In this document: positions 46,580 to 53,296 of the stretch, piece after piece
How positions within the stretch are numbered: the stretch's first letter is position 1
How the letters are laid out: every line of letters begins with the position of its first letter
DNA from: an uncultured Candidatus Binatia bacterium
GTDB lineage: Bacteria > Desulfobacterota > Binatia > UBA9968 > JAJDTQ01
DNA: 64,000 nucleotides
NCBI GenBank assembly: GCA_958295985.1
Contig: OY282432.1
Coordinates: 3,195,001-3,259,000, forward strand
Direction: 5' to 3'
Made by a program: the position numbers and the translations under genes
Notes under the pieces: generated by a model
What the model was told of the DNA's origin: nothing
What the model saw: the letters and a program-made list of their open reading frames with translations, nothing else
Databases searched by the model: none

Positions 46580-46655
46580 GAGCCGTTAGCTCAGCAGGTA
46601 GAGCATCTGCCTTTTAAGCAGAGGGTCGCCGGTTCGATCCCGGCACGGCTCACCA
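46580..46655 (+). tRNA. tRNA-Lys (TTT)
   Basis: 76-base cloverleaf with encoded CCA. Acceptor GAGCCGT pairs with ACGGCTC, D-arm GCTC/GAGC, anticodon stem TCTGC/GCAGA with loop CTTTTAA giving anticodon TTT, and T-arm CCGGTTCGATCCCGG. It stands 43 bases from the end of hsdR, so the type I restriction island begins next to it. tRNA 3' ends are common integration sites. Confidence 0.97.
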
Positions 46656-46698: not shown

Positions 46699-49600
46699 TC
46701 ATCCGTACGTTTCCCCGCCCAGAACTTCGACGACCTCCGCGATAACTTGCAATTGTCCCTCCTCCGCGCCCGTAAGAACGATGGGCGCGAAATCTCTGTT
46801 GACGGGTCTGAGCGTAATTTTCGTATGGCGCCAAGAGTCTCCGTCGCCCGCCTTCTCGCTCTGGTAACGCTTGACGGTGTACCGCTGCCCGCTCTCCGGG
46901 TCAGTGGCGTCGCGCATCTGCACGAGCACCGTTTTCCCTTGGCGCGCGCCCTCTACGGGCGCCGCAAAGAGGCAGTGCGCACCATCAGGAATGCGCGGCG
47001 CCATGGACCTGCCGACCACCTGGGCGACGAACATGCCGCGACGGAGACGGCGTGTGGTCTCGACCGCTACCCACGCAAAATCATCGTCGTCAATTTGTTG
47101 GGGATCGCTGAATGCGCCCGCGGCGGCTTTGAGAGGCACAAGAGGCACGCAGGTCACGTAGCGCTCCTCTGGTTGGGGCTCGACGACCCGCAGGCGCGGC
47201 GGCAATGTAGCGAGCTCCGCCTGCTCCGACGCTTGGCCAACATCGTTGCCTTTCAGGCGTCGATACGCTTCCGACGACATCCATTCCATCACGGTGTTCT
47301 GAAAAGCCGCATCGTTCATGAAGCGGACGAAAATGCCTTCGTTCTGGTCCATGCGTTCGACAAAGAGATTCTCCAGCAACCCCTTGAACACCAACTCGAA
47401 CTTGTCGCCCGGGTTAACCGCCGCCGCCTGCCGCACCCTGTCGTCGGCCATCGCCGCTTCGACGATCTGGTCGAAGAAAAGCTGATCCGCCTGGTTGAAG
47501 TCCGTGCCGAATCGCTCGTTCAAAGCGTCGATGAGTTGCGAGAGCGGCACCGGCTGCGGGCGCACCATGCCGCTGCCGACCTCCGTTGGCCCGTCGAGCG
47601 GCCGGGCCTCGCCGTTTTGAAGCGCGATGGACCCCTCGCTGATCTTCTGCAAGCGGTAGTAATCGAGCCGTACCTCGTCATCGAACCGGTACGCCGGCCC
47701 GCTCTTGCGACGCGGCAGCTTTGCCGCGAGATGGCGGAGGAACACGTACAGCCGCTCGAGATCCGAGTCCTGGTACGGAATCACCTGACTCAGAAACGCA
47801 TAGAGGTTCAAGAACGCCTGCAGCTTGCCGCGCCAGTCTTCCGCCGCTTCCTCGTTTGCGTCCCGGCGGGCAGCGAAGCGCGATACGGCCGGATCGATGG
47901 CGGCGTTCATGGTGCGGTGATCCGCTGCGCTCTGCCGCTGCTTGGGCGCAAAATAGACACCGCAGAACCGCTCGACCTCTTCGTCCAGGTAAACGCCTGA
48001 AGCGTCCAGTTCGCCCTTGATTGCGTACATGCGGGCGGGGTCCACTTCCTCGCCCATCTCGGCGCCTTCGTAATAGGTCTTGAAGGCTTCCTGAATCTCC
48101 TCCCGGTCGTTGACGAAGTCGAGCACGAAGGTGTCTTCCTTGCGTGGATGAACCCGGTTCAGCCGTGACAGCGTCTGCACGGCCTGAATGCCCGCCAGCC
48201 GCTTGTCGACGTACATCGTGTGCAGGAGCGGTTGATCGAAGCCGGTCTGATACTTCTCTGCAACCAGCAGCACCTGATATTCCTGCGTCGCGAACTTTTC
48301 CGGCAACGCCTTCTCGGAGAGGCCGTGGTTCATGCCCGGCTCGGTATAGGTGACGCCGGCGAGCTTGTCGTCCTCCACGGCGCCCGAGAAGGCCACCAGC
48401 GACTTGATGGCGTACCCCTTTTTCTGAATGTAGCGGTCGAAGTTCTGCTTGTAGCGAACCGCTTCGAGGCGCGACCCTGTCACCACCATCGCCTTGGCTC
48501 GGCCGCCGATTCTGTGCCGGGTGACCGCGTGGAAATGTTCCACTATCACCGCGGTTTTCTGCGCAATGTTGTACGGGTGCAGCCTCATGAACCGCGCCAA
48601 CGCTTGCGCCGCCTTCTTGCGCTCGACATTGGGGTCGTCGTCGCACGCCTTGAGCAGGTTGAAATACGTCTTGTAGGTCGTGTAGGACTTCAGCACGTCG
48701 AGGATGAATCCTTCCTCGATCGCCTGGCGCATGGTGTAGCGGTGCACGGGCCGCCCATCGCGGCCGAACACGGCCAGCGTCTTGTGCTTGGGCGTGGCGG
48801 TGAAGGCGAAGAAACTCAGGTTCGCCTGCTTGCCGCGCTTGGCCATGCTGCGAAACAACGCCTCCAGGTCTTCCCGGCCTTCCTCTGCCGCTCGCTGTCT
48901 GGCCGCTTTGCGCAGCGCTTCGCCACCGAGCACTTCCTTGAGGTCGGCCGCCGCCTCGCCGCCCTGAGAGCTGTGGGCTTCGTCGACGATCACGGCGCAA
49001 CGCCGGGTGGCGAGCGTCCCCGTTCCGGTGGCGCCGCGTTCCTCGGCCATCTTGAGCAACTGACGCGAGACGAACGGGAATTTTTGCAGGGTGGTGATGA
49101 TCACCGGCACCGCATTCTCAAGCGCTTCAGCGAGTTGCCGCGAGTTGTCGTCGATCCGCTGCACGACGCCGCGCTTGTGCTCGAACTGGTAGATGGTGTC
49201 CTGGAGTTGCTGGTCCAGCACGACGCGATCCGTCACCACGATCACGCTATCGAAGACGCGCTCGTTGGCGGCGTCGTGCAGGGACGCGAGACGATGCGTC
49301 AGCCAGCCGATCGTGTTGCTCTTGCCGCTCCCCGCCGAATGCTCGATGAGGTAGTTGTTGCCCACGCCCTCGCGGCGCGCGGCGGCTACCAGCGTACGCA
49401 CCGCCTCAAGCTGATGGTAGCGGGGGAAGATCATCGACTCGGTCGGGACCCTGCGGCCGTGATCGTCGCGCTTCTCTTCGATCTGCAAGTGAATGAAACG
49501 GGCGAGGATGTCGAGCAGGCTGTCGCGCTGCAGCGCCTCTTCCCACAGGTAGGCGGTACGGTAGGTACGTCCCGCCGCATCAGGTGGGTTCCCGGCGACT

Positions 49601-50253
49601 CCGTTGCAACCCCTGTCGAAGGGCAGAAAGCGCGTCGCTTGGCCGGCCAGGCGCGTGGTCATGAGCACCGATTCGGTATCCACCGCAAAATGCACCAGCG
49701 CGCGTCGCTTGAAGACGAAGATCGGCTCGCGCGGCTCGCGGTCCCGCTGGTACTGGCGCACCGCATCCTCCACCCGCTGGCCTGTCAGCGGGTTCTTCAG
49801 TTCCAGCGTCACGACGGGGATGCCGTTCAGGCTCAGCGTGACGTCCAGCGACTGTTCGGAACGCGGCGAAAAGTGGAGTTGGCGGGTCAGCCCCAGACGG
49901 TTGGCCGCGTAGCGGGATTCAAGCTCGGGATTCAACTCGTGCGCCGCCTTGAAGTACGCGGCGCGCAGCGTTCGCCCGTAGCACTTGAACCCGTGCCGCA
50001 GGGTCGCAAGCGCGCCGTTGGCGTCCATCCACTTGCAAAGATCGGTAAGGATCTGCTCGCCGGTCCTGGCGCCGTGCAGCGCTTCGAGCTTCTCCCACGC
50101 CTGCGGTTGCGTTTCGCGGATGAAGGCGAGAACCACATCGGGAAAAATGGCGCGCTCGCGGTCGAAGCCGTCCCCCGCTATCGAGACGTACCCGTTCTCC
50201 AGCAGGTGGGCTTCAATGACGGCTTCAAAGGCGGCTTCGCTCGTGTGCTTCAT
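46699..50253 (-). CDS. hsdR: Type I restriction enzyme HsdR subunit fused to a C-terminal S24 (LexA-like) peptidase domain
   Basis: 1184 residues. The N-terminal nuclease core shows Asp137 and Glu151-x-Lys153 in TLELKNP (PD-ExK). Superfamily 2 motor: Walker A AGSGKS at 307-312, DEAH at 424-427, and SLSRLNR-type motif VI near residue 745. From about residue 1060 an S24 peptidase-like domain follows: [13 protein letters not shown] with candidate nucleophile Ser1083, and YTVKRY with Lys1128, spaced like LexA/UmuD. HsdR cuts DNA after translocation in unmodified contexts. The extra domain suggests autocleavage or controlled release. Start ATG 50253; a small ORF overlaps it. Confidence 0.9.
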
Positions 50254-50457: not shown

Positions 50458-51618
50458 CTACAACCTCTCCTGTCGATTGAGATGCAGGACATGTTTCTCT
50501 TCGCCAATGATGCTGACTTCCTCTATCTCGTCATCGCAGTAGAACCTGTACGAGCCGCCCACTTCCAGTCCGTCCAGGCTCGGACCTCCGTCTCCGATCT
50601 TTCCCGAACGTGCGCCTTCAGCCGTGAGCAACCCCCACATGCCAGTGTTTCGATTGAATTTCTCGAACGTACCTTCCAGGGTAATCGGTTCACTCCCGAG
50701 CTTATGGACGTGCGACAACACTTCGACCAGTGGCGCGGCCTGCCTTTCCGCCACCCCGCGAATGGTCGGCTGCTCCGAGTTCGGCAAGGCCCACGAATAG
50801 TGAACTCCGGTTTGCGTCTCTCTCAAGAAGCGCAAGAATTTCAGATAGGCTCCCGCCAAGTGCCCGCGATTAGCCTCGATCACGGCAAGCGTGTCGTCGG
50901 GACTAGCGGCGTGCTCGAACAGCCTGTCCACTCGGGGAAGCGCGGTTGCGATCTCACTCTCGCCAAGAAGGTTGAGAGTACCTGCGGCTTCGAAAAGGAC
51001 GCGAAACGAGCCGGCCGCAGCGGGGACGACGACATCGAGCAGGTCTTGGTTCGGTTGCCAGTGGGCAAGCGGGTTCTCCTTCCGCATTTCCCTATGCGCT
51101 TTCCTGACCATCGTCTGCACGTGCTGAAGCAGCTCTGCAAGATTACCCGCACGGATACGATGCTGCGTAGCCGCCTCGGGGGGTTCGGCGACAACTTCCA
51201 GAACGAGGTTGTTACGTTGCCGGGCTTCCTTGACCAAGCCGTCCGAAGGCCTGTCGTGGAGCAGGAAGCCGGGGTCGGGAAGCATCCCACTGTCCAGGAG
51301 CGAACCGGTCAACCGCTCAAGATGCAGCGGACCGTCAATACCAACCGATGTCGTTGCGGTGTAGTGTTCGTCCTCTTCGGAACCCACCAGCAGGGAGCGC
51401 AGGTCGATCTCGCCGCCGCGGAACAGTCGTAGCTGCTCCGGAGCCACACCGACAACGAGATAGCGCTCACGTCCTTCGCCTGGGGGCGGCTCGGAGAGGG
51501 AGCGTGCATCGGGTTCCACCGCCACTGCCGCGTAGTGGCCTCCGATGGCGTCACGGGCTTCGAACACCTGGGGGCCGTCGTAGTAGAACAGCGTGCCCTT
51601 ATAGTGAACCGACTTCAT
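50458..51618 (-). CDS. Accessory protein in type I restriction locus (DUF6575-like, with C-terminal beta-rich domain)
   Basis: 386 residues from ATG 51618 (GGAGG 4 bases upstream). It opens with YKGTLFYYDGPQVFEARD, a beta-rich segment recalled from the DUF6575 family, followed by YLVVGVAPEQLRLF. The middle is helical (GNLAELLQHVQTMVRKAH), and the C-terminus has an OB-like LEGTFEKFNRNTGMWGLL stretch, then YRFYCDDEIEE. No catalytic motifs. It lies between the 95-codon gene and hsdR, co-directional. A regulator or protection factor for the restriction enzyme is possible, inferred from position only. Confidence 0.6.
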   Translation of the reverse strand: MKSVHYKGTLFYYDGPQVFEARDAIGGHYAAVAVEPDARSLSEPPPGEGRERYLVVGVAPEQLRLFRGGEIDLRSLLVGSEEDEHYTATTSVGIDGPLHLERLTGSLLDSGMLPDPGFLLHDRPSDGLVKEARQRNNLVLEVVAEPPEAATQHRIRAGNLAELLQHVQTMVRKAHREMRKENPLAHWQPNQDLLDVVVPAAAGSFRVLFEAAGTLNLLGESEIATALPRVDRLFEHAASPDDTLAVIEANRGHLAGAYLKFLRFLRETQTGVHYSWALPNSEQPTIRGVAERQAAPLVEVLSHVHKLGSEPITLEGTFEKFNRNTGMWGLLTAEGARSGKIGDGGPSLDGLEVGGSYRFYCDDEIEEVSIIGEEKHVLHLNRQERL

Positions 51619-51701: not shown

Positions 51702-51989
51702 TCAATCCTGCCGTGCCGTAAGTCGTACGCTGCATAAGAGCCGCCCCCGCAAGGCCGGGAGCTTTAATGCGCGCCTCCCGTCTTCCGGTCGAGCGTAGAC
51801 GGACAAACCGCGCGCTTGGCACTCCGTGACCCCCTGAAACGGCTGCGAGGGATTCTCCGCGCGCTGCGACCGAAAGTCCTGCTCCGTTGGAGGGTTCGTC
51901 CTCACCAAGCGAAACACTTGCCGAGGTTCGCTGATTTCCTCGGCGGTCTCTGGCGGACACCCATCCGGCAGCGGCTCTCGATAGGTCAC
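51702..51989 (-). CDS. Small protein translationally coupled to HsdS
   Basis: 95 residues from GTG 51989, which overlaps the hsdS stop (GTGA). Sequence reads EEISEPRQVFRLVRTNPPTEQDF, then a GVTECQARGLSVYARPED segment and a LPALRGRLLCSVRL end. I recall this as a small conserved family found downstream of type I specificity genes, but cannot check. No motif suggests an enzyme. Coupling to hsdS implies a fixed ratio with the specificity subunit. Confidence 0.65.
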   Translation of the reverse strand: MTYREPLPDGCPPETAEEISEPRQVFRLVRTNPPTEQDFRSQRAENPSQPFQGVTECQARGLSVYARPEDGRRALKLPALRGRLLCSVRLTARQD

Positions 51990-53296
51990 GCTGCCCTCCC
52001 GAGGTCTACCTGGCCGGTGACGGCGGCGGCGATGAGAGCGGCGCGGCGCTCTTTGAGTAGTTTGATAGTTCGTTCGGTTGCCACATTCAACGCGTGAAGC
52101 TTGTCTGTCTCCAGAGAGACATGAGCGATGATCGTTCGCTGTTCCTCGATTGGGGGCGCCGGGTAGCGAACAATTCGCAGCTTCTCAGCGGGTAAGTGTT
52201 GAATGGTGGAAGCAGAAGACTGCAACGCAAACTGGCCGGAATCTACAATAGCTCGCATGACAAGAACAAAGAACGCGGGCTCATCCTCACCCCCAATGGG
52301 GCGAAGGCGGTGGAGCGCCTTCTGGTAGTAACACTCTGGATATGTGTCATCCCAGAGCGCACATCTCCCTACCTCCCCGCCCTCACAGACAAGAATGTCG
52401 CCGACTCGCAAGGCGTATCTACGTCGGTCCTCTTCGTCAAAGTCCATCTTGGGCAAGTCCGCGGTGTTGATTGCTCCCCACTGGACATCGACGTTTCTGA
52501 GGTACGGAGCTAGGTGTCCTCCTCTTATCCTCTTCTCGTCGAGCATCTTCCCCAACTGAACCACAAAGCGAGCATAGACAGGTGGAGTCTCCCAATGCGC
52601 CGGGATTTGCCCCAGCCAGGGGATGCCGGAGTCGCGCAACGGAACGCAGGGATCGAGGCCTCTGGTGACGGCGCGGATAATGAGCGCCTGCCGTTTCTCG
52701 GCCAACAGAGCGAGCACCCGCTCCTTCGCCGCCACCAAAGCATCCAGCCGCGCCGTCTCGCGGTCGAGGTAGTCGGCGATGGCGCGCTGTTGCGGGAGCG
52801 ACGGAACCGGGACCAGAAGATTAGCGTACTTCTCTCCGTTGACATTCCCAATAGTGGCCTCGATGACAGCAGATCCCAACCATTGCTGAAAACCTGGAGA
52901 CTTTGTGATGTAAAAGAGCCATCGAGGGGAATCGGGATCTCGAAGAGTGTACCTGACCAAATAGCCGGCGTAGGCGCATAGCCCGTCCTCAGGTTGATAA
53001 ACGTAGGCTCTCCCAACAGTCCCGCTTCGTGAAATTAGGAAGTCCCCTTCCGAGAGTATGTAGTCCTTAACGATGTCTGCGGGAACGAATACACCACCTT
53101 CGTTCAAGGTCCCATCATCCTGAATGTCGGTGGTTCTCAAGAATCGAACGCCATCATTCTCATAGACTTCGGCTGCGACATTTGCTCCGTAGAGGGAAGA
53201 GCGACTACATAGGTATTTCAGTGGCAAGGAGCGCCATCCCGTCGGAATAGGTCCAAACGACCATTCGCGCGAGGATGCGGGGCTTGCAGTGTTCAC
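51986..53296 (-). CDS. hsdS: Type I restriction-modification specificity subunit HsdS
   Basis: 436 residues from GTG 53296 overlapping the hsdM stop (GTGA). It has two target-recognition halves: N-terminal TRD to ~190 with a GDFLISRSGTVGRAYVY stretch, then the conserved spacer helix VPSLPQQRAIADYLDRETARLDALVAAK. The second TRD (GDILVCEGGEVGRCALW) is followed by PPIEEQRTIIAHVSLETDKLHAL. Each half recognises part of a bipartite site and helices set the spacing. It pairs with HsdM. Confidence 0.93.
   Translation of the reverse strand: MNTASPASSREWSFGPIPTGWRSLPLKYLCSRSSLYGANVAAEVYENDGVRFLRTTDIQDDGTLNEGGVFVPADIVKDYILSEGDFLISRSGTVGRAYVYQPEDGLCAYAGYLVRYTLRDPDSPRWLFYITKSPGFQQWLGSAVIEATIGNVNGEKYANLLVPVPSLPQQRAIADYLDRETARLDALVAAKERVLALLAEKRQALIIRAVTRGLDPCVPLRDSGIPWLGQIPAHWETPPVYARFVVQLGKMLDEKRIRGGHLAPYLRNVDVQWGAINTADLPKMDFDEEDRRRYALRVGDILVCEGGEVGRCALWDDTYPECYYQKALHRLRPIGGEDEPAFFVLVMRAIVDSGQFALQSSASTIQHLPAEKLRIVRYPAPPIEEQRTIIAHVSLETDKLHALNVATERTIKLLKERRAALIAAAVTGQVDLGRAA

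Follow-up and report, generated by a model that had tools for sequence, protein, structure and literature searches.

A LexA-like S24 peptidase tail on a Type I restriction subunit of Candidatus Binatia and on other restriction motors

One gene of an uncultured Candidatus Binatia bacterium, lying in a stretch of 64,000 nucleotides (contig OY282432.1, hereafter the window), encodes a complete Type I HsdR up to about residue 1003, followed by a short linker and a full S24 domain. Judged by its residues, this tail is apparently a catalytically intact LexA-like autopeptidase. Both domains are well known, yet their combination, its wide distribution and the existence of a module common to motor-type restriction enzymes appear to be undescribed: in a search of open-access texts, none described an S24 domain attached to HsdR or to the other motors discussed below.

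The hsdR-S24 gene and its operon

The reading frame of hsdR-S24 starts with ATG and runs uninterrupted over its 1184 codons (Table 1). Its product has the HSDR_N nuclease and SF2 motor domains of an HsdR and is encoded together with hsdM and hsdS. It matches the PADLOC REase_I profile (E 1.4e-37), and its match to NCBIfam TIGR00348 scores below the cut-off of that family. The nuclease residues D137, E151 and K153 are invariant in 28 homologues, and the motifs for ATP-dependent translocation and cleavage are intact, the activity itself being putative. The protein resembles the HsdR of EcoR124I and EcoKI in its HSDR_N nuclease, SF2 motor, domain-3-like region and HsdM and HsdS partner genes. EcoR124I HsdR (PDB 2w00, 1038 aa) matches it weakly and over residues of the HsdR body only. 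An AlphaFold model of the full-length protein, built with 28 homologues, is too poor for placing the tail on the motor (pLDDT 50.1, pTM 0.28).

Table 1. Features of the hsdR-S24 operon, with window coordinates
Feature	Position	Strand	Evidence
tRNA-Lys(ttt), adjoining the hsdR stop; may mark an island boundary	46580..46655	+	
hsdR-S24, 1184 aa; Type I R subunit ending in an S24 peptidase domain	46699..50253	-	Pfam, PADLOC
S24/LexA-like tail, residues 1019-1184	46702..47199	-	Pfam, AlphaFold model, conservation
Lys1128 codon, predicted general base	46870..46872	-	81/81 conservation (best 80 of 540 + window copy)
Ser1083 codon, predicted nucleophile	47005..47007	-	81/81 conservation (best 80 of 540 + window copy)
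Candidate autocleavage site Ala1045/Gly1046 in PLKAAAGAF	47116..47121	-	Conservation; cleavage inferred
T1R_D3-like second motor domain, residues 652-712	48118..48300	-	Pfam
SWI2/SNF2 motor (SWI2_SNF2), residues 280-524; SAGSGKSN Walker A, DEAH box	48682..49416	-	Pfam
HSDR_N endonuclease region, residues 116-205 (D137...E151-L-K153)	49639..49908	-	Pfam
Slot ORF between hsdS and hsdR, ~386 aa, start chosen at MKSVHY	50458..51618	-	Homologues in same slot, L053 and L078
hsdS specificity subunit, GTG start overlapping hsdM stop	51986..53296	-	Methylase_S 1.1e-12, PADLOC Specificity_I 1.9e-90
hsdM methyltransferase, 661 aa	53293..55278	-	N6_Mtase 6.6e-53, HsdM_N, PADLOC MTase_I 849 bits

The operon of the window is ordered hsdM, hsdS, slot ORF, hsdR-S24, and homologous operons follow the order hsdM, hsdS, variable slot, hsdR. 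The slot ORF of the window has no Pfam, PADLOC or NCBIfam match. Elsewhere the slot holds an AAA ATPase, an ImmA/IrrE-type gene (Peptidase_M78), an ORF of the window's type, or a HATPase with a cytosine-methyltransferase-like gene. The Peptidase_M78 proteins, found beside hsdR-S24 in about 12 homologous operons, have around 385 residues and are encoded immediately upstream of hsdR-S24 (e.g. L040:8809-9966); a Peptidase_M78 gene likewise precedes a tail-less HsdR in L157. In a Binatia relative (L061:2491-5474, the same as L039:3-2986), genes for a HATPase_c_3 protein and, by eye, a cytosine-methyltransferase-like protein lie between hsdS and hsdR-S24, and this Type I operon thus looks as if it held a second modification enzyme. 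Slot genes are also present in the operon of a tail-less HsdR from Ketogulonicigenium, so that tailed HsdRs are not alone in having a slot.

The operon block has a GC content of 61.9%, against 66.2-66.4% in its flanks. This low value and the adjoining tRNA-Lys are consistent with an acquired island. We found no att repeat of the tRNA-Lys end within the window.

The S24 tail

The first-pass annotation of this DNA had placed an S24 domain at the C-terminus of HsdR and proposed Ser1083 (in GRSM) and Lys1128 (in YTVKRY) as its catalytic pair. Pfam Peptidase_S24 indeed matches residues 1038-1175 above its cut-off (29.1 bits against 23.3, E 8.7e-7), over positions 2-116 of the 116 in the profile, and both residues lie at the positions given. 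That annotation had missed the AAAG at residues 1043-1046, whose Gly1046 lies 37 residues before Ser1083 and which is a candidate for the expected Ala-Gly cleavage site.

The predicted structure points in the same direction. Modelled alone with 57 aligned relatives, the tail gives a much better model (pLDDT 84.7, pTM 0.81) than the full-length protein, and Foldseek returns lambda CI and LexA as best PDB matches with probability 1.00. Structural alignment gives Z 12.6 with Thermotoga LexA (3k2z) and Z 12.3 with E. coli LexA (1jhh), with UmuD' and signal peptidases ranking lower; residues 9-162 of the model align on LexA 69-198, a range that covers the cleavage region. LexA and CI entries solved bound to RecA (8gmu, 8gms, 8trg) are among the matches. 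The tail is thus predicted to adopt the LexA fold and shares with LexA, lambda CI and UmuD the Ser-Lys dyad and the Ala-Gly site 37 residues before Ser. Unlike LexA, it comes without a DNA-binding domain, its N-terminal partner is a restriction motor of 1000 residues, and the stretch from Ser to Lys is longer. Pfam finds no N-terminal HTH or wHTH in the 1184 residues of HsdR-S24, and we discard the idea of a LexA- or CI-like transcription repressor, which would bear a DNA-binding domain where this S24 sits on HsdR. In profile comparison, the LexA-like protein of the same genome matches the tail weakly (69%), with gaps past the Ser stretch.

We scanned one genome per species (84,980 species) for relatives of the tail, found 540 places encoding them and kept the best 80, which together with the window copy make a conservation set of 81. 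Within these best 80 of 540 plus the window, Ser1083 is present in 81/81, a count that is partly selected because the Ser-Met pair belongs to one of the two search patterns. Lys1128 and the AAG of the cleavage site belong to neither pattern and their counts are hence unbiased: in the same set, Lys1128, A1044, A1045 and F1048 are found in 81/81 and G1046 in 80/81. These residues are also retained in 11 further, more divergent tails (42-75% identity to that of the window). In most close pairs the tail has a dN/dS of about 0.10-0.15, against 0.05-0.10 for the HsdR body, which indicates that it evolves under purifying selection.

Distribution and mobility of the tail

In 43 of the best 80 of the 540 places, the tail belongs to an HsdR. 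About 33 of these HsdRs are full length, and their bodies share 76-86% identity with that of the window. Overall, we count about 35 independent full-length HsdR-S24 genes at this identity in at least eight phyla. Two tailed relatives come from genomes of the window's own class, Candidatus Binatia, one of them (G007) being on the same contig as L061; the other carriers belong to Acidobacteriota, Pseudomonadota, Myxococcota, Gemmatimonadota, Thermodesulfobacteriota, Rhodothermota and Spirochaetota. Nearly all these genomes are metagenome-assembled, and that of the window has an estimated contamination of 6.6%. The possibility, raised at first, that the joint between the domains was a frame error can be put aside, since body and tail share one frame in each of about 35 independent assemblies. 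Together with the purifying selection on both parts, this recurrence across phyla leaves a sequencing or assembly artefact with practically no credibility.

The architecture had also been described as unusual on HsdR. This holds for plasmid-borne HsdRs, since none of the HsdR matches in 72,556 plasmid records has an S24 tail; it does not hold for environmental lineages, where the architecture recurs. The single tailed record in those plasmids is a Schlafen-type helicase of Halomonas, whose two parts are encoded in frames that overlap. No phage record matched the S24 tail, and viral contigs gave one weak match of 35% among the matches listed.

Tail-less HsdR relatives with 73-83% identity terminate around residue 1003-1020, immediately ahead of the point where the tail would start. 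They are found on the Ketogulonicigenium conjugative plasmid (75%), in several Binatia (73-76%) and in Acidobacteriota (74-83%). In a survey of 396 Acidobacteriota genomes, the 3' end could be judged for 14 HsdRs with at least 74% identity, ten tailed and four tail-less. One gain and one loss of the tail suffice to account for the tree of HsdR bodies. Strict monophyly of the tailed HsdRs is rejected (p-AU 0.0006), because a tail-less HsdR, L156, is nested among them at 83% identity. We read L156 as a loss within the tailed clade, which implies that the tail is dispensable. As tail-less relatives stop where the tail begins, the tail is an addition to a complete HsdR; once cut, the R subunit would remain whole and end in a new C-terminus.

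The tail is not restricted to HsdR. The first-pass annotation had mentioned S24 domains at the end of helicases, and such proteins exist even in the genome of the window. With tail identities of 42-80%, hosts include YprA/MrfA-type helicases of about 1980 residues (21 loci among the best 80 of 540, besides one in the window's own genome), Type ISP enzymes (Type_ISP_C), Eco57I-type methylases, Type III Res, Schlafen group 3 helicases, other HsdR families, an XRE-HTH repressor and a PIN-like N-terminus. Non-motor hosts are few: XRE-HTH, the PIN-like N-terminus and methylase-only fragments. Bodies and tails can be strongly mismatched. The HsdR body of L069 is 36% identical to that of the window and its tail 71%, whereas L082 and L107 share 95% identity in their bodies (dS 0.28) and 71% in their tails (dS 1.31). 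Hence, a tail can be transferred without its body. On the tail tree, 14 changes are required to account for the host labels, though many of its forks are weak. The tail is a mobile module common to motor-type restriction enzymes.

Some of these hosts deserve description. The YprA/MrfA-type helicase of the window's own genome (L011:5771-11707, 1978 aa; DEAD, Helicase_C, MZB, S24) has a tail 63% identical to that of HsdR-S24 on a motor of a different family. It lies beside a gene for an Eco57I-type methylase of 1839 aa (L011:12655-18174), both at about 1,975,770-1,988,170 of contig C1, and this pair recurs across several phyla. In L049:6654-9398, an EcoEI-type HsdR has S24 at residues 65-213, ahead of the motor; its genome, G007, also encodes a C-terminally tailed HsdR. 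The XRE-HTH repressors of L100:8662-9495 and L109:8662-9498, with tails 66-67% identical, lie downstream of genes that resemble, by eye, those for subunits of respiratory complex I and not those of defence systems. In L058:8770-9453, a PIN-like stretch (just under the cut-off of Pfam PIN) is in frame with the tail, and may be a fusion to a truncated gene. A distant HsdR family (L142, L143 and L144; 44-47% identical) has a different C-terminal extension, by eye of AlbA_2/Schlafen type (GESKTLEFKSTLRW...GGDLLIGV). The C-terminus of HsdR seems, on these sequences, to be a hot spot for domain addition.

Possible roles of the tail

Motor-type restriction enzymes endanger their host when repair creates unmodified sites, and the hosts of the tail are mainly such enzymes, a class whose translocation is potentially self-destructive. 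The first reading of the sequence had suggested that RecA might release, activate or silence the motor through the tail, an idea that is plausible given the conservation of Ser, Lys and cleavage site. We infer a built-in OFF switch, in which damage would provoke RecA-dependent self-cleavage and the motor would be shut off, probably through a degron exposed at ...AAA; we would put this a little short of an even chance. Repair of a damaged chromosome would create unmethylated host sites while RecA-ssDNA filaments accumulate. These filaments would bind the tail and provoke self-cleavage at the candidate site, leaving the motor with a free C-terminus ...PLKAAA. Proteases of the ClpXP type could recognise and destroy this product, as they do LexA fragments, so that the motor would be degraded or at least silenced. 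The methylation activity of M2S would survive. The same genome encodes RecA, a LexA-like repressor and ClpX. The mechanism is modelled on two precedents: ClpXP degrades EcoKI HsdR during restriction alleviation, through a degron that could not be found (PMC4231737), and LexA-like proteins have ClpXP degrons adjoining their autocleavage sites (PMC5742171). As proposed here, the window HsdR would share with EcoKI a proteolytic shut-down when host DNA is endangered, but EcoKI involves no self-cleavage whereas the window HsdR has a built-in candidate autopeptidase that would expose the degron. The AAA residues may also be kept for cleavage alone rather than as a degron. Two further points weigh against the switch: the tail is dispensable, as L156 shows, and a few of its hosts are not motors.

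Other readings keep the fold and change the trigger, the direction or the role of cleavage. The tail might switch the motor off in response to translocation state, unmodified host sites, a slot partner of ImmA/IrrE type, or heat and general stress. The LexA-like IrvR escapes RecA dependence (PMC7101444), hence RecA is not the sole possible trigger, and EcoKI alleviation does not require the SOS response (PMC11109961), so that damage control without an S24 tail exists; the ImmA/IrrE-type genes of about 12 homologous operons would fit such a cue, and they count for the RecA-triggered reading too. Yet, LexA and CI structures, several of them RecA-bound, are among the closest to the tail, and its pairing with many slot genes and unrelated hosts argues for one common trigger. 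We consider a cue other than RecA unlikely. The direction could also be reversed, with a tail that inhibits the motor and removes itself upon damage, for example that caused by phages, releasing an HsdR as active as the tail-less relatives. Phage infection can induce SOS, and these relatives, which end at the tail start, keep the operon, so that the body alone is presumably active. But SOS also follows host damage that makes unmethylated sites, at which point turning restriction on would amount to self-destruction. Moreover, cleavage would leave a terminal ...AAA, which is degron-like and not stabilising, and a default OFF state would be of little benefit to systems protected by a methylase. 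Such an ON switch is, in our opinion, distinctly unlikely.

S24 domains dimerise, and LexA and CI do so through theirs. The tail could thus have a structural role, dimerising or docking to tether two R subunits or a partner, with cleavage being incidental; HsdR indeed acts as two copies in R2M2S (PMC12707154). Docking would require neither Ser, Lys nor cleavage loop, but these are kept in 80-81 of 81 tails across unrelated hosts (best 80 of 540 and the window), and we regard a mainly structural role as quite improbable.

The damage-triggered OFF switch might extend beyond Type I systems. A mobile, RecA-responsive, self-cleaving module could have been added repeatedly to Type I, ISP, III and YprA-helicase motors and to Schlafen-type helicases as a shared damage-triggered shut-off. 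Restriction alleviation, to date seen in Type I systems alone, would then exist in a general form. We hold this extension tentatively, as possible rather than probable. Other Type I families alleviate by other means (PMC12707154), and why alleviation is unseen in other classes of restriction-modification systems has been asked before (PMC4231737).

It has long been asked how restriction motors avoid destroying the chromosome of their own cell once it is damaged. HsdR-S24 offers an answer that can be tested outside the EcoKI lineage: changing Ser1083 alone should uncouple damage from restriction. The spread of the tail over unrelated restriction motors suggests that a link from defence to the DNA-damage response is widespread among uncultured bacteria. 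The S24 tail also provides a sequence handle for finding restriction systems wired in this way.
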